This document shows, one piece after another, positions 19,458-58,336 of a stretch of 64,000 nt of DNA (position 1 is its first letter; every line of letters begins with the position of its first letter). Source of the DNA: Bacteriovoracaceae bacterium. GTDB lineage: Bacteria > Bdellovibrionota > Bacteriovoracia > Bacteriovoracales > Bacteriovoracaceae. The notes beneath the pieces were generated by a model. That model saw nothing but the letters and a program-made list of their open reading frames with translations. It searched no databases and had not been told where the DNA came from. Location of the stretch: contig JAEUWD010000002.1 in NCBI GenBank assembly GCA_016786485.1, positions 62,001 to 126,000 on the forward strand, read 5' to 3'. The position numbers were made by a program, and so were the translations under genes.

Positions 19458-19911
19458 GAAAAAATTTAAAATTGTTCTGCATTCACCCGATATTCCCGGG
19501 AACACCGGGAGTATCGGTAGAACTTGCGTGGCGCTCGATATAGAATTAATTCTCATTAAGCCGATTGCTTTTGATATTTCAGAAAAAGCTGTCCGACGCG
19601 CTGGCCTTGATTATTGGAAGTTTATCAATCTTCGCGTTTATGAAAACTGGGAAGATTTCTTAACTCAAGAAAAACCAGAAAATATGATTTTTTTATCCAA
19701 GCTCGCTAAGAAAAATTATTTCGAAGCGGACTACGCAGAAAATTGCTATTTGATTTTTGGTTCTGAAACCAAGGGTCTGCCGGATGATTTACATAAAAAG
19801 TATTCAGAAAGATTTTTTTCCATGCCGATGTTTTCTGAAAATGTACGCTCACTAAACTTATCAAACGCTGCTACTGCCGTTGCCTACGAATGTTTACGGC
19901 AATTGAACTAA
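19450..19911 (+). CDS. trmL: tRNA (cytidine(34)-2'-O)-methyltransferase, SPOUT family
   Basis: A 153-residue minimal SPOUT methyltransferase. It shows the N-terminal HSPDIPGNTG.I.R block, the knot motif GSETKGLP, and VRSLNLSNAATAVAYE at the C-terminus. This size and motif set is TrmL, which 2'-O-methylates the wobble base of tRNA-Leu. Its start overlaps pepA by 8 bases (coupled translation). Its stop overlaps the convergent ORF6N gene by 4 bases. Confidence 0.93.
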   Translation: MNKKKFKIVLHSPDIPGNTGSIGRTCVALDIELILIKPIAFDISEKAVRRAGLDYWKFINLRVYENWEDFLTQEKPENMIFLSKLAKKNYFEADYAENCYLIFGSETKGLPDDLHKKYSERFFSMPMFSENVRSLNLSNAATAVAYECLRQLN

Positions 19912-20411
19912 TTTAACCCAATTTTCTTGCGATTCGGCTTTAATTTCGGAGCATTTTCTTCTACTAAATCGAGTCTTTGAAAAACTATTCTAAATAATTT
20001 ATTTGTGCTCTGCTCTAGTTTATCAACTTTTTCACTTAAAGAATTATCCATGGCCAGAAAACTGCGGAGTCTTATAAATGTACGTATTATAGAAATATTT
20101 ACCTTTGATGCGCGTTCGCTATTCAAAACGCTGGATAACATTGCTACACCACCCTCTGAAAAAACAAAAGGTAAGTATCGCCGACCACCTTTCTTTGAGG
20201 TTCCAAATTGGAACCTCAAGCACTCTGACTCTTGTTCATTTAATTGAAACATAAAATCATCCGGGAAACGGTCAATATTACGCTTAACTGCTTTATTTAA
20301 ATTCTTAGTTACAACACCATATAGTTTTGCCAAGTCTGAATCTAACATGACCTTCTGCCCTCTAATGACATAAATCATTTTTTCAATTTTCAAAGAATTG
20401 ATTTCTTGCAT
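19908..20411 (-). CDS. ORF6N-domain DNA-binding protein (copy A)
   Basis: A 167-residue protein with an N-terminal ORF6N domain (IRGQKVMLDSDLAKLYGV ... RFPDDFMFQL ... GVAMLSSVLNS), a helical linker, and a C-terminal coiled-coil-like tail ending RKKIGLN. ORF6N is a presumed DNA-binding domain of phage and bacterial regulators, related in context to KilA-N and Bro proteins. A good GGGAGAATGAA ribosome site precedes the ATG. Inside the gene, 20195-20219 is a perfect 25-base palindrome. Paralogs lie at 26548 and 57679. No toxin, integrase or phage gene accompanies it. Confidence 0.9.
   Translation of the reverse strand: MQEINSLKIEKMIYVIRGQKVMLDSDLAKLYGVVTKNLNKAVKRNIDRFPDDFMFQLNEQESECLRFQFGTSKKGGRRYLPFVFSEGGVAMLSSVLNSERASKVNISIIRTFIRLRSFLAMDNSLSEKVDKLEQSTNKLFRIVFQRLDLVEENAPKLKPNRKKIGLN
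20195..20219. repeat. Perfect palindrome inside ORF6N copy A
   Basis: Two 12-base arms (TTGAGGTTCCAA and its exact reverse complement) flank one central base. On the coding strand it spells L-R-F-Q-F-G-T-S. The dyad centre is the first base of the codon after Gln. The other two ORF6N genes have different palindromes at the same codon. Confidence 0.95.
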
Positions 20412-26002: not shown

Positions 26003-26551
26003 ATGTATTATTTCAATATTACGTTAAAAATTCTAGTTTTAATTTTTAGTTTAAATTTAAACGCGAAAGTTGATCCCCCCAATTACAATTTTAGCCTCGA
26101 TGAACTTGCGATTTTTAATCCTGGAAGCAGCATCTCCGAAATTGAAAAAAAATATGGGCCAGGTTTAATCATTGAAAAAAAAGGCGAGATAACAATTTTT
26201 CGTTTTTTTGTATCGCAACTTCGTTATAAATTCCCCGTGATCGTGCAGGCAAAATCAGCCGAAGTTTTAGATTTTTACGCCACTTTACCAAGTTATTTTT
26301 TACATGATGTTTTTCATCAATCCCTGATTAATCGTATCGGAAAACAAAATCAGTACCTATTAAGGGACGAACATGCCGTGTATGTTTGGAATAATGTTAA
26401 AAATTTGAAGCACACTTATAGTGCTGCCTGCACCATTACCTGCTTCCCTATTTTCTATTCTGTTTCACGCATTGACGGTGAAAGATATCAGCCACTGATT
26501 GATCTTTTTATCGAAAATGAAAAGAGTGTGAGAAACCAGAAAAAGAATTAA
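26003..26551 (+). CDS. Exported protein with BamE-like segments, function unknown
   Basis: A 182-residue protein with an N-terminal signal-like segment (ILVLIFSLNLNAK). A domain follows with the pattern SISEIEKKYGPG, like the turn-helix-GxP of BamE/SmpA; a second, weaker copy (LINRIGKQNQYLL..HAVYVW) comes later. I cannot assign a function. The ATG has no ribosome site and sits at the predicted +1 of an extended -10 promoter. The stop overlaps the convergent ORF6N gene by 4 bases. Confidence 0.6.
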   Translation: MYYFNITLKILVLIFSLNLNAKVDPPNYNFSLDELAIFNPGSSISEIEKKYGPGLIIEKKGEITIFRFFVSQLRYKFPVIVQAKSAEVLDFYATLPSYFLHDVFHQSLINRIGKQNQYLLRDEHAVYVWNNVKNLKHTYSAACTITCFPIFYSVSRIDGERYQPLIDLFIENEKSVRNQKKN

Positions 26552-27054
26552 TTCTTTTTGATCCCGATTTTTTTTCGTTCTTTCGGAACATTTGGATAAA
26601 TGATTTCATCGACGGAATCGAGTCTTTCGAAAATAATTTTAAAAGTCTTTTCAGTATTTTCTTCGAGTTTCGTTAATCGCTTTTCTGTTTCATTATTTAG
26701 CACGAGATAACTTCGTAGTTTGGTAAAAATTCGAATAATTGAGATATTCATTTGAATCGCTTGTTCCGAATTCAGAACACTCGACAACATGGCGATACCA
26801 TTTTCAGTAAAAACGTAAGGACGTTTTCTTATCCCACCGTGCAAACTTGATGTCACAAATTGTGACATCAAGTTTGTAAACTCTTGAAAAGACAGCTGAA
26901 ACATGAAGTCTTCAGGGAATCTAGAAAAGTTACGTTTCACGGCTTGATTAAATACTCTTGTTTCTACGCCGTACAACTGGGCCAAGTCAGAATCCAGCAT
27001 CACCCGCTGGCCACGTATCAAATAAATAATTTGAGAAAGTTTTAATTCATCCAT
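26548..27054 (-). CDS. ORF6N-domain DNA-binding protein (copy B)
   Basis: A 168-residue paralog of copy A: IRGQRVMLDSDLAQLYGVE, RFPEDFMFQL, ENGIAMLSSVLNS, then a coiled-coil tail ending ERKKIGIKKN. The middle of the domain (residues ~60-70) is encoded by the longest of the three palindromes, 26842-26876. There is no ribosome site. TG-T-TAATAA ends 6 bases before the ATG, so the mRNA may be leaderless. It lies alone between an exported-protein gene (4-base overlap of stops) and lgt. Confidence 0.9.
   Translation of the reverse strand: MDELKLSQIIYLIRGQRVMLDSDLAQLYGVETRVFNQAVKRNFSRFPEDFMFQLSFQEFTNLMSQFVTSSLHGGIRKRPYVFTENGIAMLSSVLNSEQAIQMNISIIRIFTKLRSYLVLNNETEKRLTKLEENTEKTFKIIFERLDSVDEIIYPNVPKERKKIGIKKN
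26842..26876. repeat. Perfect 35-base palindrome inside ORF6N copy B
   Basis: Two 17-base arms, exact reverse complements (CAAACTTGATGTCACAA / TTGTGACATCAAGTTTG), flank one central base. On the coding strand it spells N-L-M-S-Q-F-V-T-S-S-L. The centre is the first base of the codon after Gln, as in the other two ORF6N genes. Confidence 0.97.
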
Positions 27055-28930: not shown

Positions 28931-30097
28931 ATGAGAAAGCTGTTTTTGAAACATTTAGGCTTCAGTCTTGTCGAAGTCATGCTGGCGGTAGGTGTGGGTT
29001 CTATCGTCACACTTTCAGTGATGAGCCTAATGCAAAACGCGGCCCGACAAAAAGCTAGTATGGAAAGAGATAGTGATGTCGGAGTAGCTATCACATATCT
29101 CGAAAATGCTTTGGCCAATAATGATGTTTTCGAAGACAATTTTGTTACACCAGGTATTACTTGTACCAATTATCGTGACGATTCCGTTTGTGATAATTTA
29201 CCACTCGTTATCAATGGAGCTGGTATCGCCGTCGGTGGCCAGCAAGTCTTTCAAGCTGGTACACGCTTTGGTCGAATTACTGTTGGTCAAATCAGAATCT
29301 TAGAAATTCGTCCGCTCACAGATACTGTTTCAGCCAATGCAGGCACAACACTTCCAGGTATAATTGAGATTGAAGCTAATTTTAATAAAAATGATATCGT
29401 AGGTGGTAAAAAAGTGACGTATGGTTCGGGTACTGCTCAAGCCACGATAAAACTCACAACACGTTTAACTGAAAACGCAGCGGGTGATTTAACTATTACG
29501 GATTTAATGTACTCTCAAAACTCGCGCACTGTTGCACTTCAAGATAACTGTGATCAATTAACAGGTGCGGCAGGAAACTGGAATTTCGATCCAACATATC
29601 AAAACATGCAGTTAATACCTTACACTGACACGAATGGTGGTTCACAAGATATTCTCATTTCAGGTACAAACATCGGAACACAAGGTGAGCTTTCAACTTT
29701 TGGCCGTTGTAATCACAATTATTTTGAAGAAACATGTGAAGACTTTTCTCGAGGATACGATGTCGCCGTTGGTGTTGATACTGTTTACACTGATAACGAA
29801 GCCGTCGCTTGGCATAACCGTTGTCAAAACGCTAATGAAGTTGTTTGTTTGGCACTCGGAAGACAGTGGTCAGAAGACATTGAGAATCCAGGCGTATTTC
29901 GTTGTTATGATCAATGCTTGTGTGAAAACGTTTTATGTGGACCCAACTCAGCTAATTTAAAAAATTGTGGGCAGTGCTGCGCGCCTATGACCTGTGTTTT
30001 AGGTGACGCTAATGATATGGCCAATGATAGTACTGCTAACGGAATATGTACTTGTGGTGCAGACACGACTGCACCAATTGCATGTCAGACACCATAG
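28931..30097 (+). CDS. Prepilin-like protein with cysteine-rich C-terminus
   Basis: A 388-residue protein with a class III prepilin leader: a basic start, cleavage site G|FSLVE with the +5 Glu, and a ~20-residue hydrophobic helix (VMLAVGVGSIVTLSVMSLM). The globular part is long, and the last ~120 residues carry about 20 cysteines, including a C.QCC knot and CTCG. PilW-like minor pilins are the nearest analog. AGGA lies 12 bases before the ATG. It is the first of three closely spaced prepilin genes (8-base gaps) and likely starts the transcript. Confidence 0.82.
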   Translation: MRKLFLKHLGFSLVEVMLAVGVGSIVTLSVMSLMQNAARQKASMERDSDVGVAITYLENALANNDVFEDNFVTPGITCTNYRDDSVCDNLPLVINGAGIAVGGQQVFQAGTRFGRITVGQIRILEIRPLTDTVSANAGTTLPGIIEIEANFNKNDIVGGKKVTYGSGTAQATIKLTTRLTENAAGDLTITDLMYSQNSRTVALQDNCDQLTGAAGNWNFDPTYQNMQLIPYTDTNGGSQDILISGTNIGTQGELSTFGRCNHNYFEETCEDFSRGYDVAVGVDTVYTDNEAVAWHNRCQNANEVVCLALGRQWSEDIENPGVFRCYDQCLCENVLCGPNSANLKNCGQCCAPMTCVLGDANDMANDSTANGICTCGADTTAPIACQTP

Positions 30098-30105
30098 GAA
30101 TATTT

Positions 30106-33100
30106 ATGAAGATAAAAAATTTATTTAATGCAAAAGGCTTTACTCTAACCGAGGTGATTATTGGTGGCGCCATCGTTGCTATAACTGGACTTGGTGTTAT
30201 GCAAGGTTTAGAGATTTCGAGCAACTCAAATAAATTAAAAAAGCGTACGGTTCAAGCCGACAGACTCCATAAAAGAATTGTTGGTCAACTTGCCATACGA
30301 GCAACTTGTAAGGCCACTTTTAGTGCGACCAATACGCCTGCAACAGTTGCCGGATATTCCGTCAACGGTTCCGTAATCGGTGGTGAGTTTAATGAAATTG
30401 GAATTAACTCGGTCACTATTCCTGCTGTCGCGGCTTCTCCTAACGTTCAAACAGGTCAACTGGTTATTGTTTATAATCTCGATGTGAATAATCGTGGTGT
30501 TTCGGGAGGTGGAGTGGCAACCAAATCCACTACCATTTATATCCGAAGAACTGCGAGTAATTTTGAATGTTCAACCGCATTCTTAGATGAAGAAAGTTAT
30601 CGTCAAAATTGTATAGGCTCAGGTGGAACATGGGACTCTGATGCACAAACATGTAACATCAATACTGGAAGTGGTAATGAAATTTTATCCGCCATCAATG
30701 CCTCAAAACAAAAATGTCAAAATTTAATTGGCGGTACCGCTATCACCGCTGGCGGTGGACAAACGTGTGATGCCGATGAAGCTATGTGTGAAGGTATCGG
30801 CGGTTGCTGGAATTGGGTACATCCAATAACTGGAACGAATTATCCCGGCTGTAATTTTGAAACTGCCGGAACTTGGGGATGGATCAACACAGTTCCACCT
30901 ACAACATGGTCAGATTGCTCATCTTGTAATCGATCTCGCCAACAAGAATGTCAGGTTGGTATGTGTGATGATGTAGGTACTTGTACCGGAGCTGGTCCAC
31001 AACCTGCCCCAGAAGTTTACCCTGCCGGTGTTGGTGGCTCACTTGAAACACCTTTTGCATCAGGTGGCTCACCAGTCGGAGCTGGTGTCATTGGTGCCTT
31101 TAATCCAATACCAACCTGTGCTATTTATGGTCAATATACAATCCCGAGTCCAGGTGTTTACAGTTGTGCCATCGCTGATGGTTTTCAGTCAGGAAATTCC
31201 TGTTACGAAGATATCAGTTGTTCAGGCTCAGCGTGTGGAGCTAATTGCGATCCAAACAGTGCAACAAACTCACCAAGACCAAGTTTATCTGGAACACAAA
31301 GTTTTGGTAATATATCAACTTCGCTTAACTCTTCCAATGGTCGTCGATACGATACCGCCGCGGTTTGCGGACCTGCTGGTACATGGCCGGCTACAATTCC
31401 AGGTGGGGCTTGGGGAGCATGCTCGAGCTGCTCTCAAACTGCGACAATTAGTTGTAATTTAGGAAGCTGCGGAGGCACATGCCCTACTGCTGCTTTTAAT
31501 ATCGGCTCAGCTAACTGTGTTCCAAATGGAACCGGAACTTCTGCTACTTGTACTCAAGCCTGCGGAACTGTTCCTGGTACTTGGACAACACCAAGTTATC
31601 CCGCCTGTCCCGCTGCTCAAACAGCAACGGTCACATGTACACCTGGAGCTTGCGGTGGAGACTGCTCGTCAGTGACACCTCCAACTGGATGTGATGGCTC
31701 TGGAAATTGCACAGGTTCAGCTTGTCCACCTTCAACCTGTGTTAATGGTGCAAGTTGTACAAGCGATGCTGCCTGTGTAACAGGCACATGTACTGGAGCT
31801 AGTTCATCAACAACCTGTAGCGATTTTTATGCAGGTTCTTCGATTGAAAATTGCAGTTCAGCTAATGCAACAGCACAGCTTCCACTTTGTACTGCGAGTT
31901 GTGGTGGTGATACTAATTGTTCTTGCCAATGTCTGGGCGGATTTTCATATGGACCTATGGACAGTTGCTCAGCAAGTCTGGGATGGCCATCTCCATATGT
32001 GGGTGGATTTCACATAAGAAAATTTATTACAAGCTCGACAGCAGGCACATGCTCATGTCCAGTTACTTCATGTACTGTCGGAGCCAGCTGTACCACAGAT
32101 CCAAGTTGCGGAGCAGGTGGTACATGTAATGGATATACCCCAGCTGGTCCAAACTACGCTGGTACATGCTGGGGCGATCCATTTGCGTGCGGTGGAGGTC
32201 CTACCGGCCCTGACTACTCTGAGGGGACACCTTGCAATAGCGGAGCTGATTGTCCAGCACGTGTAGTTGACTCATACGGAGATTGTGGTGGCTATGAACC
32301 GCCAGGCACAGAGCAAACGGGAACAGATTATTACTGCAATACTGGTTTTCCAATCACTGGAACAGAAGTACTCGGTTCTTGTTCTTGTGGATGTACACCG
32401 ACAACCTCATGCTCTGCAATCGCAGCAGGTATTTGTACCGGTGTGGATGCAGGAAACGACTCATGCGGAAATGATTGTGGAAATGGAACAAAAACCGATG
32501 GTGCTTGTGCTGGCGGTACTTGTACCGTTGGAGCAAACTGTAATAGCGATGCCTCTTGTGGAACTGGAGGAAATTGCAATATTGCTTCATGTAATATTGG
32601 TGATAGTTGCGTCAATGACTCGAATTGTACTGGTGGCTCTAGCTGCGTGAATATACCAATAACAACTCCAGGTGATTGTTCAATCAGTGTTACTGGATGT
32701 GTAGGCAGTTCATATTCAGTTGGACCTGGTGGGTGTACCCCTGGTTCGAGTTGTAATATTGTTGAATGCGGTCAGTATGGTAACGTGAACGAATGTGTTG
32801 ATTGCTCATGTGGTGGTGATGTAACGACTGACAATTATACATGCCAAAATTGTCCAGCAATAGGTACATGTTCTTGCTCGGCTTCATGTACTCCAAATTG
32901 CTCGAATGCATCAAATGTTTGCGCAGGAGTTCAGTTTAGTGATGCTAACGGATGTGGCACGAATAACTGTACCGGAACAAAAAATCCTGCTTATGGGACT
33001 TGGAACTACGGAGGATGGGGTGCGTGTATAGGTAGTAACGATAGCACATGGGGAACAAGAACAAGAACCGCTACTTGCAGTGGAACGAGTAACGGGTGCG

Positions 33101-33357
33101 GTGTTGTATGTCCAGGTACACCAGCAACAACAGAATATTGCATGGACGTTGGTCAATATTACAATGAAAGTATAGCGTGTAGCGGGTGGAACGTTTGCTG
33201 TACATTCGACACGCCACAACCTTGGTCATCATCTGGAACGTTGCTTGAATGCCGAACAGTAGATGGATTTCAAGACGCTTGGTGTGACAATGCTCCTGAG
33301 GGTGGTGCTAGTTTATATGAGTGTAGACTTGCGGTGCCCGTACCGGCGTACCCATAG
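30106..33357 (+). CDS. Giant prepilin-like cysteine-rich surface protein (1083 residues)
   Basis: The start at ATG 30106 is chosen because it follows AGGA and gives a prepilin leader (AKG|FTLTEVIIGG) with the +5 Glu. After a ~200-residue pilin-like head, the protein is ~850 residues of Cys/Gly/Thr/Ser-rich repeats. Units such as CTVGASCTTDPSCG..G.C recur, and W-rich segments (GTWGWINT...WSDCSSC, YGTWNYGGWGAC) resemble thrombospondin type 1 repeats. Disulfide-rich repeats on a pilin helix suggest a pilus-tip or surface adhesin. Far longer than usual pilins. Parts are related to the protein at 34197. Confidence 0.8.
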   Translation: MKIKNLFNAKGFTLTEVIIGGAIVAITGLGVMQGLEISSNSNKLKKRTVQADRLHKRIVGQLAIRATCKATFSATNTPATVAGYSVNGSVIGGEFNEIGINSVTIPAVAASPNVQTGQLVIVYNLDVNNRGVSGGGVATKSTTIYIRRTASNFECSTAFLDEESYRQNCIGSGGTWDSDAQTCNINTGSGNEILSAINASKQKCQNLIGGTAITAGGGQTCDADEAMCEGIGGCWNWVHPITGTNYPGCNFETAGTWGWINTVPPTTWSDCSSCNRSRQQECQVGMCDDVGTCTGAGPQPAPEVYPAGVGGSLETPFASGGSPVGAGVIGAFNPIPTCAIYGQYTIPSPGVYSCAIADGFQSGNSCYEDISCSGSACGANCDPNSATNSPRPSLSGTQSFGNISTSLNSSNGRRYDTAAVCGPAGTWPATIPGGAWGACSSCSQTATISCNLGSCGGTCPTAAFNIGSANCVPNGTGTSATCTQACGTVPGTWTTPSYPACPAAQTATVTCTPGACGGDCSSVTPPTGCDGSGNCTGSACPPSTCVNGASCTSDAACVTGTCTGASSSTTCSDFYAGSSIENCSSANATAQLPLCTASCGGDTNCSCQCLGGFSYGPMDSCSASLGWPSPYVGGFHIRKFITSSTAGTCSCPVTSCTVGASCTTDPSCGAGGTCNGYTPAGPNYAGTCWGDPFACGGGPTGPDYSEGTPCNSGADCPARVVDSYGDCGGYEPPGTEQTGTDYYCNTGFPITGTEVLGSCSCGCTPTTSCSAIAAGICTGVDAGNDSCGNDCGNGTKTDGACAGGTCTVGANCNSDASCGTGGNCNIASCNIGDSCVNDSNCTGGSSCVNIPITTPGDCSISVTGCVGSSYSVGPGGCTPGSSCNIVECGQYGNVNECVDCSCGGDVTTDNYTCQNCPAIGTCSCSASCTPNCSNASNVCAGVQFSDANGCGTNNCTGTKNPAYGTWNYGGWGACIGSNDSTWGTRTRTATCSGTSNGCGVVCPGTPATTEYCMDVGQYYNESIACSGWNVCCTFDTPQPWSSSGTLLECRTVDGFQDAWCDNAPEGGASLYECRLAVPVPAYP

Positions 33358-33365
33358 GATAAAAA

Positions 33366-34049
33366 ATGATTAAAAAAAACGGTTTCACATTAATCGAAAT
33401 GATGGTCGGAGTAGGAATACTTTCGGTAGTTTCGTTAGGCTTTATGTACGCCAGTCGCGTTCAAGTCGAATCAACTCAAACCGCCAAAAAAGCCAAGCAA
33501 CAACTTGAGCTTTTAAGTGATCTTAATGAAACACTCAAAGACCAAAACGTTTGCGAAACGAGCCTAAAGAATCTAGCTGAAAATGCCTCGGTGACGGAAA
33601 TAAAAGGAACGATTAATCACTTTCAAGTTGGTACACCAATAACTCAATATCCAGGCGTAAGTATTAAATCGATGACAGTGAAAAATTTTGGGACGATGAG
33701 TGACAGAGATCTTGTACAGCTGGAAGTTATCTTAATCAAAAAAGCCAATAGCTCGAAAGCTAGCGATATAGAATCAGTCCATCTTATTTCACTGGGAGCT
33801 GTTGTTAAATCGGCCAAAATTGAAACTTGCTCGGCTGGATTTCTAGAAGAAAAAAATCGTGAAGTCACTTGTGAATCAATTGGTGGCACTTTTGGAAACA
33901 GAAACTGCAACAATACGTTTGTTCAAGATAATTGCGAAAAAACAGGTGGTGTATACAACACCTCAACGAAGAAATGTCTTCGTACTAAACAGTCCGATTG
34001 CGTCGCTCTGGGTGGGCAATGGGTAGCTGGTAACTGCACCAAACTATAG
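33366..34049 (+). CDS. Prepilin-like protein with C-terminal C..GG.W motifs
   Basis: A 227-residue protein with a textbook prepilin leader (KKNG|FTLIEMMVGVG, +5 Glu). It follows the giant gene by 8 bases with its own AGGA. The C-terminal ~75 residues contain three units of C..(I/T/L)GG.(F/Y/W)....C type (CESIGGTFGNRNC, CEKTGGVYNTSTKKC, CVALGGQWVAGNC). The same unit appears once or twice in the neighbouring prepilins, so it is a shared module of this cluster. Confidence 0.82.
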   Translation: MIKKNGFTLIEMMVGVGILSVVSLGFMYASRVQVESTQTAKKAKQQLELLSDLNETLKDQNVCETSLKNLAENASVTEIKGTINHFQVGTPITQYPGVSIKSMTVKNFGTMSDRDLVQLEVILIKKANSSKASDIESVHLISLGAVVKSAKIETCSAGFLEEKNREVTCESIGGTFGNRNCNNTFVQDNCEKTGGVYNTSTKKCLRTKQSDCVALGGQWVAGNCTKL

Positions 34050-34066
34050 GTCACCAAGCTTAGTTG

Positions 34067-34141
34067 GCACTATGTAAGTTATTAAATTTGCATATATGAA
34101 AAAAGCATAATAAAATTAATAACTTATAATGTGCTTTTTTT
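34067..34141 (+). terminator. Long imperfect inverted repeat with T-run, probable terminator
   Basis: Arms GCACTATGTAAGTTATTAA (34067-34085) and TTAATAACTTATAATGTGC (34116-34134) pair at about 16 of 19 positions across a 30-base A/T-rich loop. A run of T follows. It lies between the third and fourth prepilin genes and probably ends the first transcript; the fourth gene then has its own TGTTAAAAT element near 34160. Confidence 0.65.
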
Positions 34142-34196
34142 ATCTCATAGGAACCTCAAAACCTTGTGTTAAAATAAAGTAATAGCAGGAAAACAA

Positions 34197-36797
34197 ATGT
34201 TTACGCCTTTACTTAAAAAACTACTAACAACTAAGGGTGCTTCACTTATTCAAGTGATGGTGATTGTTGGCGTTATGGGCATTATGACTGGTGTTTTCAT
34301 TCAAGAAGCCGATCTTCAAAATAAACAAACATATGGAATTAGAAAAAAAGGTGAAACAGATGAACTCTTAAATGAAATTCGTCTGCAATTAGGTAATCCA
34401 ACGAACGTAGCCGATATGTTGGTAGGCACACAAACCGCTTCATCAGGTTCTGTCACTTTGCCATTTGCGTTGAGTGCTTCAAGTGTAGCCGTTTCAGGAA
34501 TTAACTTTACAGTCGCAACTCCAGCCGTCGGAACATTAAATCCACCAATTGAACCCAATGAAGTTATTTATACACTAGATATAGCAATCAGAAGAAATGC
34601 TGCCGGCAGCCGCGGAATGAATATTGCTTCTGTTGTTAATCGCCAACTTACCCTCCGTGTTTTTCGAGATGCGACTGCTGTCTACACTGGCTACACTGAA
34701 GAATCAGAAGCTTACTATGCTCGTATCTTTTGTAAAATGGTCGGTGGCCGAATTTTAGGTAACGGCCAGTGTGATAACCAATTTGAAGCAAAATCATGTC
34801 TCATGATGGGTGGGCGTTGGATTCCAGACGCTAACGGTTTATTAACACCACCAATGAGTGCTATCGGAACTTGCGAAAAAGGTAAAGACACTTGCGCTTG
34901 GCTGACAAAACCGGAACTAGCTGCAGATGATCCTCTTAGATATGAATGTTGGAATGCAGCTTTAAATAAATGTGAATTTCCGACTGCGGGAACTTGGACG
35001 ACGGTATTTACCAACCCTCCTCAAGTGACAAATCCATGGAAAGCTTGCGCGGATGGGCCAGACGCGGGAGCAACTGTATGCGAAAGACAAAAAGATCCTG
35101 AGTGTATCGAAGGTTTTTGTAATGGTAATTGCATCGATGCACCTCCGACCGGCTTGTTTGCTGATGCTCAATTTGGGGCGGCGAAGCCTGCGGCCAGTCT
35201 TACAGTCTTAGCATACGGACAAAATCCAAATACGGTTTCAAATTTTACAACTTATACGACTGACAGTCTTCCTCCCACATGTGCCGTCTATGGACAATAT
35301 GTAGACTCTCCAGCTGGCTCTGGGCCATGGGCTTGCGACACAACTTTAAATGATTGCTATGAAGCCTTAAATTGCACTGGATATTCATGTATTTCGTCGT
35401 CCGCCAATTACTGCGATCCAAGCAATACTTCAAACTCTCCTGTACCCCTTAGTGGTTCTCAATATTCGGGCAGCATGAGCGGAAGCGGTGGACGTCGATA
35501 TGATCCAACCATTTTAAACAGTGGCGGACCTTATGCCGGTGGAACTTGTGGCGTCAACTGGTCTGGCTCAGTCACATGGTCAGGGAGCTGTAATTCTGGC
35601 ACATGTCGTGAAACGGGAACCATGAGCTGTAATTCAAATGGTTGTGGAAATTGCGCTCTCATAACTCCACCTGCTATCGGTGGTGCAACACTTTTATCTT
35701 ACAACGGAACAACTGCTAACTACGATAGAGCTTGTGTTATCAATGCCACGTGGCCAGCTCCAAGTTTTGCTTGTTCTGGTTGTGTTGAAAAGGCTTATCC
35801 AGTTTGTGGTGCCCAATGCGGTGGAACATGCTCAGGTTTAGATTCAAGATGTACAGCTGCAAATAATAATGGTGGAACCGCTGCAGATTGTACTATTCCA
35901 CAAGGTTCTACATCTTGTGGTGATGTTAATGGAGGTTGGAGTGCAAAAATTTATGGCACAACAACATTTGGAAGTTGTTCAGCAGTTTGTCCAACAACAA
36001 CTGGAACAAGAAGTGTATCTGAGCCTTGGACCCTAACATGTACCAATCCTACACCAACATGTGATGGCATTACATGTAGTGGTGCAAGTTCAGGAACTGA
36101 CAGCTCATCTGAGGCTTGCAGTACGACTTGCGCACCAGCGGCAGACTGTCAAAATGGGGTCTCATGCTCAATCACAGCTTGTACTGGCGGAACATGCTCC
36201 GGCTCAACTAAGCGATGCCAAAGAACTGTCGAAAGAGATGCAGGAAATGATTGTGGTGATATGGACATCATCATACAAAATTTCATAGCCACTCCAGCGA
36301 CATGCACATCAGATAGCGATTGTCCGGCTACAGTAAATACATTTCCATCCGGAAAGTGTAGTGATGGCGGTAATGTCGCAGATGGAACAATGGTAACGGA
36401 CTATGCATGTATAACGGATACTTCCGCACAAACCTGTGGCGGATGCCTTGTGGCTTGTACACCTTCATGTCCTGCAACTAGTACATATTGCGCCGGTGAT
36501 GAACCAAGTGATGGCTGCTCTGGCACATGTCCGACAGGTACAAAATCTTCCGGGTGCGGAGATTGCGATGCGAGTGGATTAATCGCATCGTCCGCAACTT
36601 ATGGAACGCCCGCGATTTCATGTTCATATAATGCCGGACAAATAATTCTAATTTGGGACCCCGCTGGAACTGTTCAGCCGTGCGGGATACATGACTCCAT
36701 ACAATACAGATGTGAATCTGATGGCTCATGGACTTATTTAGGGTATGCATGCCACCCTGATCCTGACCTTCCAAGAACGTCAACATGCACACCTTAA
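34197..36797 (+). CDS. Large prepilin-like cysteine-rich protein lacking the +5 Glu
   Basis: An 866-residue protein with a leader like a prepilin (TTKG|ASLIQVMVIVGVMG), but Ala replaces Phe at +1 and Gln replaces Glu at +5. Pseudopilins lacking Glu5, such as GspK, sit at the tip of the pseudopilus. After a ~190-residue head come ~650 residues of Cys-rich repeats. Several blocks match the 30106 protein: a TCA.YGQY..P block, a CYE...C.G..C block, and an N.CDP......SP....GSQ..G...GRRYD block. AGGA precedes the ATG. Confidence 0.78.
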   Translation: MFTPLLKKLLTTKGASLIQVMVIVGVMGIMTGVFIQEADLQNKQTYGIRKKGETDELLNEIRLQLGNPTNVADMLVGTQTASSGSVTLPFALSASSVAVSGINFTVATPAVGTLNPPIEPNEVIYTLDIAIRRNAAGSRGMNIASVVNRQLTLRVFRDATAVYTGYTEESEAYYARIFCKMVGGRILGNGQCDNQFEAKSCLMMGGRWIPDANGLLTPPMSAIGTCEKGKDTCAWLTKPELAADDPLRYECWNAALNKCEFPTAGTWTTVFTNPPQVTNPWKACADGPDAGATVCERQKDPECIEGFCNGNCIDAPPTGLFADAQFGAAKPAASLTVLAYGQNPNTVSNFTTYTTDSLPPTCAVYGQYVDSPAGSGPWACDTTLNDCYEALNCTGYSCISSSANYCDPSNTSNSPVPLSGSQYSGSMSGSGGRRYDPTILNSGGPYAGGTCGVNWSGSVTWSGSCNSGTCRETGTMSCNSNGCGNCALITPPAIGGATLLSYNGTTANYDRACVINATWPAPSFACSGCVEKAYPVCGAQCGGTCSGLDSRCTAANNNGGTAADCTIPQGSTSCGDVNGGWSAKIYGTTTFGSCSAVCPTTTGTRSVSEPWTLTCTNPTPTCDGITCSGASSGTDSSSEACSTTCAPAADCQNGVSCSITACTGGTCSGSTKRCQRTVERDAGNDCGDMDIIIQNFIATPATCTSDSDCPATVNTFPSGKCSDGGNVADGTMVTDYACITDTSAQTCGGCLVACTPSCPATSTYCAGDEPSDGCSGTCPTGTKSSGCGDCDASGLIASSATYGTPAISCSYNAGQIILIWDPAGTVQPCGIHDSIQYRCESDGSWTYLGYACHPDPDLPRTSTCTP

Positions 36798-41861: not shown

Positions 41862-43136
41862 TTAAGCTGGCCAGATACCTCTAAGTCTCATGGCAGCGTC
41901 TAGTCGTGAAAGGGCCGAAATAGTTGCGGCTTTCTTCATATCGACCTTGTACTTATCTGCACAATCTGCGACGCGATGGAAAGCGTTATTTAAGATACCG
42001 TATAATTTATTGTTGATCTGATCTAAATCCCAGAAGAAGTGAGCTAGACCTTGAACCCATTCAAAGTATGAAACGGTAACACCACCAGCATTACAAAGAA
42101 TATCTGGAATAACAAAAACACCTTTTTCTGTTAGAATATCAATAGCAGGACCAGTACATGGACCGTTCGCACCTTCGGCGATAACTTTCGCCTTAATCTT
42201 AGCCGCGTTCTTCTCAGTAATAACTCCAGAGATAGCAGCTGGAATGAGAACATCAACATCCAAGCACAATAAATCTTCGTTCGAAATTTTTTCTACGTTT
42301 GGCATATCCTTTAAAACTTTGCCTGATTTTACCCATTCAATTGTTTCTTGCAGATTAATTCCACGAGAATTGTAGATACCACCGGTATAGTCACTAACAG
42401 CAACAATACGTGCACCTTGAGCTGCTAAATCTTGGGCCGCAGGAACACCAACTTTACCAAAACCATGAATTGCTACTTTTGTATTTGAATCTAATCTTAA
42501 ACCCAATTTTTCAAAAGCGAATTGAATACAAAAAGCGACACCTTTACCAGTTGATTCAGCACGACCAAGAGAGCCGCCGATACCAATTGGTTTACCAGTA
42601 ACAACACCATGAACAGCGTAACCAGTTTGTTGAGAATATGTATCCATAAACCAAGCCATCGTCTGACCATCAGTACCGATATCTGGAGCTGGAATATCTT
42701 TATCAGGGCCAACGAATGGACCAATTTCAACCGCATATCGACGAGTCAGTGCTTGCAACTCCTGACGAGAAAGTAAATTTGGATCAACACGAACGCCACC
42801 TTTTGCTCCACCTAACGGAAGACCAACCAGCGCACACTTAAATGTCATTAGCATGGCAAGCGCAGCTGTTTGTGAAAGGTTCACGTCTTGGTGAAAACGA
42901 ATCCCACCCTTACCTGGGCCTAAAGTCATATTGTGCTGAACACGGTAAGCTTCAAAAACTTTTACCGTTCCGTCATCTAAACGAATGGGAACTGAAACTT
43001 GAATCGCTCTTTTTGGATAACGAAGTCTTTCCAAAATATTTGGATCTAAATTCATAATACTAGAAGCGCTTTCCAGCTGACTAATAGCATCTTGGAACAA
43101 CGGACTTTGAAACAACGGGCTCTGCGAATTCTGCAT
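41862..43136 (-). CDS. gdhA: Glu/Leu/Phe/Val dehydrogenase, glutamate dehydrogenase type
   Basis: A 424-residue enzyme of the hexameric glutamate dehydrogenase family: GPGKGGIRFH, the catalytic-lysine motif LPLGGAKGG, PAPDIGTDGQTM, the nucleotide-binding turn GFGKVG, and EGANGP near the end. It interconverts glutamate and 2-oxoglutarate; cofactor preference is not clear from sequence. An AGGAG site precedes the ATG. The N-terminus carries a small tandem duplication (SPLFQ twice). Confidence 0.93.
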   Translation of the reverse strand: MQNSQSPLFQSPLFQDAISQLESASSIMNLDPNILERLRYPKRAIQVSVPIRLDDGTVKVFEAYRVQHNMTLGPGKGGIRFHQDVNLSQTAALAMLMTFKCALVGLPLGGAKGGVRVDPNLLSRQELQALTRRYAVEIGPFVGPDKDIPAPDIGTDGQTMAWFMDTYSQQTGYAVHGVVTGKPIGIGGSLGRAESTGKGVAFCIQFAFEKLGLRLDSNTKVAIHGFGKVGVPAAQDLAAQGARIVAVSDYTGGIYNSRGINLQETIEWVKSGKVLKDMPNVEKISNEDLLCLDVDVLIPAAISGVITEKNAAKIKAKVIAEGANGPCTGPAIDILTEKGVFVIPDILCNAGGVTVSYFEWVQGLAHFFWDLDQINNKLYGILNNAFHRVADCADKYKVDMKKAATISALSRLDAAMRLRGIWPA

Positions 43137-48120: not shown

Positions 48121-50019
48121 ATGAAGAATCAAACATTACTGCTTATTGCGCTATTATCCTCTATCCTGCTTTTTAATTCCTGCACCTTTCGAAAAGGTGG
48201 CGCAAGAAACGAAGTAGCACAAGGCCATTTTCAACTTTATTCTCACCCCGACTATGAAGAAACAAAAACAGAAGAAACCAATCGGCGTCTAGTGATTGTT
48301 TCAACCAATGATCTCTACGGCCATATCATTCCGGAAAATGAAACAGTCGTTTCTCCTGATAATCAAAATCAAAAGAATTATCCGGTCGGAGGTATGAGTT
48401 ACTTTTCAACTTACCTTAAAATTTTACGTGAGAGATATCCCAACCAAGTCATGTTAGTAGATGCAGGGGACTTTTTCCAAGGTACACTTCTTTCTAACAG
48501 CTTAATGGGTCAGCCGATTGTCGATGTTTATGAATATCTTGGTTATGATGCCGTTAACATCGGTGATAACGATTTTTACTTTTTAAATAATACTAAAAAT
48601 GATGATCAAAATTATTTTAGAAATTTAGTAAAAAAATCCAAATTTCCTTATTTACTAAGTAACCTCTATGAAATTTCTTCGGCCAAAAATATTAATTGGG
48701 AGAACATCAAGCCTTTCGTGATTAAAGAAGTGAATGGCATTAAAGTCGGTATCATTGGTGTTATGACAAAAGAAATTTTAGATAAAAGCATTAAAGAAGC
48801 GTTAACCGGTTTATATATCGAAGATTTAAACAAAGCCGTTATTCGTCATTCACATTTAGCAAAACGCGCTGGCGCGCAAGTCGTATTATTGCTTGCTCAC
48901 TCAGATATTCTTTGTGGAACTCAATCCGCTTTAAAAAAAGAATTACCGATCAGCAAAGTCAATTTCTCACCAAATGATGCTGAGGCTTGCGATTCTAATT
49001 CTGAATTAACTCAGATGTTAAAAATGATCCCACCAAATACGGTAGACTTGGTAGTTTCAGGTAATCAATTAGGCAAAGTCGCAAACTTCATTGAAGGTGT
49101 TCCAGTCGCGCAAAACTTCGGGCTCGGAAGATATTTTTCAAGAATTGAATTAGTTTATGATTTAAAAAAGCAAAGAGTAGATCAAGAAAAAACCATTATT
49201 TATCAACCCACAAAAATTTGTCATAATTTCTTTTCTGAGACTGAAGATTGCTTCACCCAAGATATCAGCGTTAATCATGACTTAGTCACAACTGCAAAAT
49301 TTTTGGGCCAAGATATTTATGAAGATCAAAACTTAAAAAATCTAATTGAGCCATTTCAACAAAAAGTGAACAAACTAGCTAACCAGAAAATCAAAGATCT
49401 AGAAAACGATTTTCCACACACCAAAAACTCACTTTCACCCTTTGGCAGCTTTGTGGCAGAAACTATTCGTAAAAAACTGAATGCGCAAATCAGTATACTT
49501 AATGCTAATGCTGTTCAAGACGGTCTGACTAAAGGCGAATTAACTTACGGCTCACTCTTCCAATCACTACCTCATGATAATTTAATCATGCGTGTAAAAC
49601 TCTTTGGTCGTGATCTAAAAAGCCTTATCAAACTTAGCATCACTGATGATTATCACGTGAGCGCTTATTATTCAGGCATCAAAATTAGTTTTACTGGTGC
49701 CAATTCACAAGGCGACGATGCACTAGAAAATGAAACCTGGAAGCGTTCAAAAAACGTAAACCTCACACTCGAAGACGGGACACTGATTAATGACAATCAG
49801 GTTTATGATGTAGCAACGGTGAATTACCTAGGTCACACCAGCAAGGATTCTTTTGGGCAAATTCTCAATAACATCCATTATTCGAATAAAAAACTTTATG
49901 ATCGCAACTATCGCGACATCATCGCAGAAGAAATTAAGAATAATCGATTGTTTGAAAATGTCATCATTCGTTTTAATTCAGCGGCCAACACACTTCAGAA
50001 TCACTCACAAACTAAGTAA
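48121..50019 (+). CDS. 5'-nucleotidase/UshA-like lipoprotein with altered metal-site residues
   Basis: A 632-residue lipoprotein (ATG 48121; lipobox LFNSC, Cys 21). It has the two-domain UshA layout: metallophosphatase (about 55-330) and the C-terminal 5'-nucleotidase substrate domain (LSPFGSFVAETIRK...). Several metal positions differ: TNDxHG is TNDLYG (64-67), GNHE is GDND (148-151), and GGHSQ/H is SGNQLG (313-318). DAGD (114-117) and a possible His 260 remain. It may therefore be a binding or inactive relative. No good ribosome site; it follows the desulfurase by 10 bases. Confidence 0.75.
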   Translation: MKNQTLLLIALLSSILLFNSCTFRKGGARNEVAQGHFQLYSHPDYEETKTEETNRRLVIVSTNDLYGHIIPENETVVSPDNQNQKNYPVGGMSYFSTYLKILRERYPNQVMLVDAGDFFQGTLLSNSLMGQPIVDVYEYLGYDAVNIGDNDFYFLNNTKNDDQNYFRNLVKKSKFPYLLSNLYEISSAKNINWENIKPFVIKEVNGIKVGIIGVMTKEILDKSIKEALTGLYIEDLNKAVIRHSHLAKRAGAQVVLLLAHSDILCGTQSALKKELPISKVNFSPNDAEACDSNSELTQMLKMIPPNTVDLVVSGNQLGKVANFIEGVPVAQNFGLGRYFSRIELVYDLKKQRVDQEKTIIYQPTKICHNFFSETEDCFTQDISVNHDLVTTAKFLGQDIYEDQNLKNLIEPFQQKVNKLANQKIKDLENDFPHTKNSLSPFGSFVAETIRKKLNAQISILNANAVQDGLTKGELTYGSLFQSLPHDNLIMRVKLFGRDLKSLIKLSITDDYHVSAYYSGIKISFTGANSQGDDALENETWKRSKNVNLTLEDGTLINDNQVYDVATVNYLGHTSKDSFGQILNNIHYSNKKLYDRNYRDIIAEEIKNNRLFENVIIRFNSAANTLQNHSQTK

Positions 50020-50876
50020 CCGCCTTCACATTCAGGAGCCGCACCATTAGAACAAGTACCTAGTTGTTTTAACTCAGAGCATTTGCGAAGAGTTTTATTA
50101 GTCATTTGTGCTTGCTTTGGACAGGCCGGTAAGCCTTTTTGACCACATTCAAAACGAGAGCAAATTTTATCGTATTTTCCCCAGCAATCACCGCCAACGA
50201 CTTCAGTAAAGCCTTCACAAGTTTCACATTGTGAAATAATCGCACCACAAGCGGTATTATATTTTTCACAAAACTCGGCTTTATCCAAATTTATCTTGCT
50301 CGTGATTTCCATAGGTTTCGCACGAACGAATTTTAGCGGTTCAGGCAGTAGTATTACGCCTTCAAGTGCCGCAGGAAAAAAGCCGTCAGCCAGTTTTTTA
50401 TTTTTATATCCTGTGTAGTTTGGTTGTAAGCGATTGAAGGTAACACTGAGTTTTTCTGGTCGTGTTTTATCTAAACCCGCTTCGTAATCAAAAATAATGG
50501 TCGGAGCTTTCATTGTTACTTTCAAATAATGAATATTAGAAATATGCACCAAGCTATTTTTCACGCTGGTGAATTCGCATTTTCCAGTCACACGTGTCAA
50601 TGCCAGTTCTCCGATACTTTTCTCATCTTCACCTTTAAAGGGTGTCTTATAGAGTAGGCAGAATTCTTGTTGAGCAATATTTTTATATTTTAAAATCGGA
50701 AGCCAGATATTTTTTGGTTCGGTAATCGTTTCATTTTTTTTTGCCAACTCATTTGTGATCTCAAATTGGGTGGCTTGTTGCAGATGATACTTTAACTCGC
50801 CCCAACCTGGTGTTGCTAAAAGTTTTGTGCTTATGCTCAAAGCCAAAAAAATTAATATGATTTTATTTCGTAACAT
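50001..50876 (-). CDS. Exported protein with cysteine-rich C-terminus, unknown
   Basis: A 291-residue protein with a signal peptide (ILIFLALSISTKLLA|T). The N-terminal two thirds are beta-rich. The last ~90 residues contain 14 cysteines in pairs (CETCEG, CSRFECG, CPKQ...CSELKQLGTC...CEGGYLVC), a likely disulfide-stabilised module like a small follistatin/EGF-type fold. It overlaps the upstream FGE-like gene by 25 bases, so the two are probably made together. Its end overlaps the lipoprotein gene by 19 bases. Confidence 0.6.
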   Translation of the reverse strand: MLRNKIILIFLALSISTKLLATPGWGELKYHLQQATQFEITNELAKKNETITEPKNIWLPILKYKNIAQQEFCLLYKTPFKGEDEKSIGELALTRVTGKCEFTSVKNSLVHISNIHYLKVTMKAPTIIFDYEAGLDKTRPEKLSVTFNRLQPNYTGYKNKKLADGFFPAALEGVILLPEPLKFVRAKPMEITSKINLDKAEFCEKYNTACGAIISQCETCEGFTEVVGGDCWGKYDKICSRFECGQKGLPACPKQAQMTNKTLRKCSELKQLGTCSNGAAPECEGGYLVCE

Positions 50877-57678: not shown

Positions 57679-58203
57679 TCATTCATTTTTTAATCCTATT
57701 TTTTTTCGAATTGGATTGGGGATTTCCGGAAGTGATTCGAGATCGTCCAATCGTTCAAATACAATTTTGAATGTACGTCCTGTCTCATCCTTTAATTTAT
57801 AAATTTCATTTTGAAGACTTTGCTCAAGAACCGTATAACTTCTAAGCTTTGTAAAAATCCGCATGATAGCAATGTTGACTTGAATCGCTTGCTTGCTTTT
57901 AAGAACAGTGGAAAGCATGGCCACGCCATTTTCTGTAAAAAGATGGGGTCGGTATTTATTAATGTAATTATGTGTACTTAGATTGCCCAAGATCACATAT
58001 TGTGATCTTAGATAGGCTAACTCGCTGGAATTTGGTTGAAACATAAAATCTTCAGGAAATCTTTCAGTATTCCTTCTAACAACTTGATTGAGACTCCTTG
58101 TTTCAACTCCATAAAGCTTGGCCAAGTCTGAATCCAACATCACTCGCTGTCCACGAACCACATAAATCATTTTATCTATTTGCAAAACAAGTTCATCACT
58201 CAT
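57679..58203 (-). CDS. ORF6N-domain DNA-binding protein (copy C)
   Basis: A 174-residue paralog of copies A and B: VRGQRVMLDSDLAKLYGVE, RFPEDFMFQ, ENGVAMLSTVLKS, and a coiled-coil tail ending IRKKIGLKNE. The ATG at 58203 has AGGAGG five bases upstream; a GTG one codon earlier is less well placed. A 21-base palindrome at 57989-58009 lies at the same codon position as in the other copies. It ends 48 bases from the 3' end of tRNA-His. An eight-residue insertion (LGNLSTHNYINKYR region) distinguishes it. Confidence 0.9.
   Translation of the reverse strand: MSDELVLQIDKMIYVVRGQRVMLDSDLAKLYGVETRSLNQVVRRNTERFPEDFMFQPNSSELAYLRSQYVILGNLSTHNYINKYRPHLFTENGVAMLSTVLKSKQAIQVNIAIMRIFTKLRSYTVLEQSLQNEIYKLKDETGRTFKIVFERLDDLESLPEIPNPIRKKIGLKNE
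57989..58009. repeat. Near-perfect palindrome inside ORF6N copy C
   Basis: Nine-base arms AAGATCACA and TGTGATCTT flank three central bases. On the coding strand it spells L-R-S-Q-Y-V-I-L. The dyad centre is again the first base of the codon after Gln. The Tyr codon TAT breaks the symmetry by one base; TTT would lengthen it. Confidence 0.92.
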
Positions 58204-58336
58204 CACTACCTCCTACGATTGGAGGCATACTAATGATCAATTAGGCTTAAAGCGAATGTTAGAAGTATTTCGAAGTGTGCTTTTTCAATATTGAATTAAT
58301 GAACAAAAATATAATCATTGCTCACAACAGGCATCT

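Follow-up and report, generated by a model that had tools for sequence, protein, structure and literature searches.

In the type IVa pilus (T4aP) of Myxococcus xanthus and Pseudomonas aeruginosa, four clustered minor pilins (HIJK or FimU-PilVWX) are expected at the tip, and one of them is large, encoded at the 3′ end and devoid of glutamate at mature position 5, Glu5 (PMC10191384, PMC5207764). The subunit without Glu5 caps the HIJK tip complex (PMC10191384), and the subunit that starts the filament is recognized as the only non-Glu5 minor pilin, larger and 3′-encoded (PMC5207764). In PilABC of Streptococcus sanguinis, modules are grafted on the tip pilins PilB (vWA) and PilC (lectin), which share one operon with a single non-Glu5 subunit, the small PilA (PMC9934059). 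The Kil Tad-pilus Tips of M. xanthus are minor-pilin sets exposing variable domains for prey contact (PMC12075869). The tip adhesin PilY1/PilC is a large, variable, disulfide-containing module, with up to 20 disulfides in myxobacterial PilY1 models (PMC13190605), and the S74 fibres (MAT) of Bdellovibrio act in prey recognition (PMC10769870). The cluster described here comprises four prepilin-like genes, W1 to W4, in a 64,000-nucleotide stretch of DNA from a Bacteriovoracaceae bacterium (contig JAEUWD010000002.1, positions 62,001 to 126,000; hereafter the window). It probably encodes a T4aP minor-pilin tip complex, capped by W4 and bearing disulfide-linked arms with an adhesive or recognition role at the tip.

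The gene arrangement is that of the core HIJK tip set: the minor pilins are clustered, and the non-Glu5 one is large and 3′-terminal. W4 is the sole member without Glu5, the last gene, and far larger than a major pilin, while W2 is larger still. The window pilins differ from HIJK and FimU-PilVWX in bearing Cys-rich arms of up to ~900 residues, in lacking an adjoining pilY1 gene, and in having Gln rather than a hydrophobic residue at position +5. The modules of S. sanguinis PilABC are known adhesive folds, whereas the window arms contain no known domain, and the non-Glu5 subunit is the 866-residue W4 instead of a small protein. The Kil Tips belong to a Tad system and resemble TadE/F/G-type minor pilins; the window genes, in contrast, encode T4aP-type prepilins with Cys-rich arms. 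PilY1 is not a pilin but a protein of its own with a beta-propeller; the window arm, by contrast, is part of the pilin. Relatives of the window proteins bear S74 fibre arms; however, the MAT fibres themselves are not prepilins (PMC10769870), and neither an S74 nor a YadA module is found by Pfam in the arms of W1-W4.

All four genes are uninterrupted open reading frames (ORFs) on the + strand: W1 (28931-30097), a Glu5 prepilin-like minor pilin of 388 residues; W2 (30106-33357), a Glu5 giant modular minor pilin of 1083 residues; W3 (33366-34049), a small Glu5 minor pilin of 227 residues; and W4 (34197-36797), a giant modular minor pilin of 866 residues with Gln5. For W2, the start used is an ATG preceded by an AGGA box; the longest possible frame begins at 30046 and would encode 1103 residues. 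As the gaps between W1 and W2 and between W2 and W3 measure only 8 nucleotides each, these three genes, all with an AGGA-like box upstream of the ATG, look like one operon. W4 follows a gap of 147 nucleotides (34050-34196, + strand) and may have its own promoter, separate from W1-W3; promoter-like matches within the gap are no more frequent than in shuffled sequence. At each N terminus, a short, basic leader ends in Gly and gives way to a long hydrophobic segment (a helix of ~21 residues), with putative cleavage sites (slash) at MRKLFLKHLG/FSLVEV in W1, MKIKNLFNAKG/FTLTEV in W2, MIKKNG/FTLIEM in W3 and MFTPLLKKLLTTKG/ASLIQV in W4. Mature position 5 is Glu in W1, W2 and W3; in W4 it is Gln (codon CAA, 34251-34253, + strand), and position +1 is Ala. 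The four products hold 18, 104, 8 and 64 Cys, respectively, all even numbers; mean Cys content in the 56 other ORFs of the window is 1.1%. The original prediction of four prepilin-like genes, two of them with giant products, thus stands, and both giant proteins do carry long arms rich in Cys, Gly, Ser and Thr. Its description of the leaders and N-terminal helices as intact applies to W1-W3, not to W4 with its Ala at +1 and Gln at +5. A recent foreign origin of the DNA was rejected: the higher GC content is due to composition, and GC content at third codon positions (0.27-0.34) is equal to or below that of the neighbours (0.335).

The Pfam whole-protein cut-off of N_methyl (PF07963) is passed by W3 only (29.4 bits, E = 5e-7). 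W1 matches the same family at E = 8e-4, and its best NCBIfam match is the gspI N terminus (E = 4e-4). When the genome is searched as a whole, W3 (32.6 bits) and W1 (23.4 bits) pass, W2 falls below (17.9 bits) and W4 is not listed. The GspH/I/J/K and FimU/PilV/W/X models match W1 and W3 at the N terminus only, below cut-off, and W4 not at all. In structure prediction, proposed earlier as a check on the repeats, AlphaFold resolves an N-terminal helix/beta module of the giant proteins W2 and W4, not the arms. In W2, a long helix (residues 14-63) precedes beta strands (117-156) at a predicted local distance difference test score (pLDDT) of ~60-86; in W4, the helix spans residues 12-66 and the strands 122-167, mostly at pLDDT ~60-87. 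This helix-plus-antiparallel-sheet topology fits the pilin fold, without a significant match in the PDB, and the sizes of both proteins, with a module boundary at residues ~170-200, show a pilin module fused to an extra C-terminal module. Two P. aeruginosa pilins are among the top few rows of the W2 structure comparison, with weak Z scores of 3.4-3.5. A PDB sequence search returned only weak geopilin matches for W4 (E = 0.24 and 0.51) and no match for W2 or W3.

The arms comprise ~900 C-terminal residues in W2, ~690 in W4 and ~190 in W1, where the pilin module takes up residues ~1-200 and the arm holds 16 of the 18 Cys. The arms of W2 and W4 are homologous (26% identity over 588 residues, E = 4e-22, with values of about 1e-22 to 1e-26 overall). 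The best-modelled part of the W2 arm is a W/Cys block at residues 427-500 (31384-31605, + strand), with AlphaFold block means of ~53-81 over residues 441-500 and its better-modelled stretch at about 441-490. Similar segments (W.I.WSG.CN.SC.ETGT.SC; alignment A2) occur in W4 and in proteins of G021, a genome discussed below; the block has no significant PDB match. At residues 806-847 of W2 (32521-32646, + strand), Cys recurs every ~6 residues in CxxD/GxxC...GxC micro-repeats. In the whole W2 arm, CxxD/GxxC, often followed by GxC, was counted 15 times against 2.2 expected, a number reached in none of 3000 shuffles. The arms are not regular tandem repeats at the DNA level. W3 ends in CxxxGGx[WF] segments, also an enriched pattern (2 against 0.0 expected, p = 0.0025). 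The thrombospondin-like W segments of the original prediction were rejected, as neither TSP1 nor any other Pfam domain matches the arms at E<=5 and WxxC stays at shuffle level (4 against 1.9 in W2, p = 0.11; 1 against 1.2 in W4). No solved structure covers the arms either, and the models do not show their fold to be new.

A heme, redox or metal-binding role of the cysteines is unlikely, since CxxCH is absent from W1-W4 and W2 has fewer CxxC than expected (4 against 11.2). The cysteines are rather predicted to be paired. Among related prepilins with at least 4 Cys, 94 of 106 have an even number in the mature protein, against 143 of 254 other ORFs (binomial P = 6e-17, a value that ignores relatedness), and DsbA-family genes are present in the genome; together these observations argue for arms that are fully disulfide-paired. 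Arm cysteines are largely common to orthologs (12/16, 24/29 and 31/46 of the smaller set), a sharing to be read with the tendency of aligners to favour Cys-Cys matches.

A syntenic ortholog cluster is found in G021, a genome of another genus and the nearest relative with the cluster, at the same position as in the window, namely between a divergent gene of 261/268 residues and L21/ObgE. It encodes proteins of 659 (Glu5), 752 (Gln5) and 504 (Glu5) residues, and the ortholog of W4 is thus a Gln5 protein, too. W1 and its 659-residue ortholog share 36% identity over 390 residues (E = 3e-62). A scan of the genome collection with the W4/G021 alignment matched the G021 contig only. Wider relationships were traced with profile A1, built from Gln5-type N termini with seed proteins picked for Gln5, which also detects Glu5 prepilins and reaches geopilin at E = 0.011. 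Within the family it matches 125 of 129 genomes, in 47 of 48 genera, and within the phylum 149 of the 241 sampled genomes. In the A1 alignment, the Gly of the leader, the +1 residue and the hydrophobic helix of W4-type proteins are kept across genera. About 60 neighbourhoods were read for adjacent prepilin genes. Of the 16 loci with at least three such genes, 15 hold a non-Glu5 member, usually with Gln, and in about eleven of them each trio or quartet has just one such member; the count includes close relatives (L036/L037) and one doubtful assignment (L111). A trio of 355-372-residue proteins in another genome (L051:5597-8880, G018) comprises two Glu5 proteins and one with a GSALIL N terminus. 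Its neighbours are a phosphofructokinase-like gene on one side and a gene resembling window 41862-43136 on the other; some other window neighbours are also there, and the trio may be a shorter-armed positional equivalent of the window cluster.

The arms of the relatives vary in kind. Among 55 large prepilin-like proteins scanned (three from the window), Peptidase_S74 is present in 15 and YadA_head repeats in 3; a local hidden Markov model adds further S74 cases, and SDxxxK is retained in most. In L102:1871-17998 (G013), six genes form two trios of 866-912 residues that all end in S74 with SDxxxK at matching positions, and all three genes of L092:7044-11769 (G160), 525 residues each, share this arrangement. 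As the pilin module of the relatives carries interchangeable display arms, adhesion or recognition is favoured for the window arms as well. S74 on pilins is not a new architecture, having been recorded in a 2021 InterPro survey of modular pilins (PMC8179133). A 1335-residue Gln5 prepilin-like protein (L101:7980-11987, G151) contains two Hint/intein-like domains (PT-HINT, E = 1.6e-30; residues ~437-580 and ~834-976) between repeated Cys modules. The genome of the window itself also encodes a 2545-residue S74 fibre-like protein (L131:1794-9431, G000:C51), which has an ordinary signal peptide and resembles the Bdellovibrio MAT fibres.

The filament to which W1-W4 belong can be judged from the rest of this genome (2.98 Mb, 98% complete). 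T4aP genes were inventoried for PilA, PilB, PilC and PilT: PilA is of the Myxo type, one ATPase belongs to the PilB family (0.65 bits short of its cut-off) and another to the PilT family, and PilC is represented by a PilC/GspF-family protein. A full gsp operon for a type II secretion system (T2SS) lies elsewhere and includes five pseudopilin-type genes, one of which matches the GspK model. N_methyl proteins total eight (one PilA, four gsp and three of the window cluster) and A1 has four matches; within reach of these two models, no other minor-pilin candidates were seen. PilY1 (PF05567) was found in none of 97 genomes including this one, but also in none of 14 control genomes, so that the search has no positive control. 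HIJK sets can be exchanged between T2SS and type IV pili (PMC9934059) and a T2SS operon is present, so W1-W4 might form an alternative tip set of the T2SS pseudopilus, with arms that select or hold secreted substrates. This seems unlikely: the gsp operon has five pseudopilin-type genes of its own, which favours a pilus; the T4aP would lack a tip, as no other minor pilins were found; and giant exposed arms are less suited to a periplasmic pseudopilus than to a filament that exits the cell.

Modular pilins can also be accommodated in the shaft given a flexible linker (PMC8179133), and arm length varies strongly between orthologs in the window and G021 (388/659, 1083/504 and 866/752 residues for the whole proteins), as might be expected of non-core minor pilins that are placed along the T4aP shaft, or cap some pili only, and do not form the priming complex. 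Such a role is improbable, because no other candidate for that complex was found in the genome with the N_methyl and A1 models and the cassettes that recur with a non-Glu5 member resemble tip sets. Still less probable is that W1-W4 are never assembled, their hydrophobic N termini serving as membrane anchors for periplasmic or surface proteins. The position of W2 below, and of W4 outside, the N_methyl model and the Gln5 substitution in W4 would agree with simple anchors; however, the leader Gly, the +1 residue and the helix of W4-type proteins are conserved across genera, and in most multi-gene loci the non-Glu5 proteins adjoin canonical Glu5 prepilins.

For the preferred tip complex, we infer leader cleavage, assembly, tip position, disulfide formation and adhesion from the sequences. 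Prepilin peptidase would cut the Glu5 proteins W1, W2 and W3 as well as the Gln5 protein W4, and the four subunits would assemble via their N-terminal helices into a cap that starts pilus growth. W4 would be the terminal, K-type subunit, because with Gln5 it would leave the N terminus of any subunit above unneutralised. The arms of W1, W2 and W4 would be oxidised in the periplasm, extruded through the T4aP machine and displayed at the tip, where they would probably contact other surfaces or cells as adhesive or recognition modules, in the role that PilY1 has in model diderm T4aP. The claim of the original prediction that these are pilus or pseudopilus components with long disulfide-bonded arms is, as an inference, well supported by the prepilin N termini, the AlphaFold helix-plus-beta module, the multi-gene cassettes and the Cys parity. 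Several observations weigh against a tip complex capped by W4. The cluster is not adjacent to the T4aP core genes, and W4 is set apart from W1-W3 by its 147-nucleotide gap. W4 matches no GspK/PilX family model in Pfam or NCBIfam, and Gln at +5 is unusual, known K-type subunits being hydrophobic there. Foldseek/VIA comparison of the W2 and W4 models with the PDB gave nothing significant; their arms are poorly modelled, for the greater part near pLDDT 30, with most of the W2 arm at <50. Among the cassettes, L038, L090, L102 and L114 contain at least two Gln5 members and L092 none, and the seeding of A1 biases the sampled loci towards Gln5 proteins.

Elsewhere in the window, three scattered paralogs of ~170 residues on the - strand (19908-20411, 26548-27054 and 57679-58206) have an ORF6N-type DNA-binding look by eye. 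A secreted-looking protein of 291 residues (50001-50876, - strand), positionally unrelated to the pilin cluster, is Cys-rich in its C-terminal third (CETCEGFTEVVGGDCW...).

The cluster most likely takes a known design, that of modular tip minor pilins, to an extreme, and this design recurs across the whole family. Such pilins are already described in S. sanguinis PilB/PilC (PMC9934059) and the Kil Tips of the Tad system (PMC12075869); the novelty lies in how large and Cys-rich the arms are, in the recurrence of the Gln5 subunit, and in the alternation, throughout the family, of disulfide-rich and fibre-type arms. The same pilin module would support two architectures, one held by disulfides and the other by a fibre-folding chaperone, and the Gln5 subunit would be a naturally occurring departure from the Glu5 rule in pilus assembly. 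Little is known of how predators of this lineage select their attachment targets, and descriptions of their T4aP tips are scarce. Prey as the ligand of the window arms is speculative, a guess from taxonomy, and a predatory lifestyle of the host is likewise taken from its placement in Bacteriovoracia only. With the cassettes, tip components can be named and tested in almost all genomes of this large family. Tentatively, the T4aP tip of Bacteriovoracia could be a swappable recognition head built within the minor pilins, from cassettes of two Glu5 subunits and one Gln5 subunit with disulfide or S74/YadA arms. All-S74 trios would then form one trimeric tail-fibre on three minor pilins, and the arms would replace PilY1 and set what the pilus grips, possibly prey.

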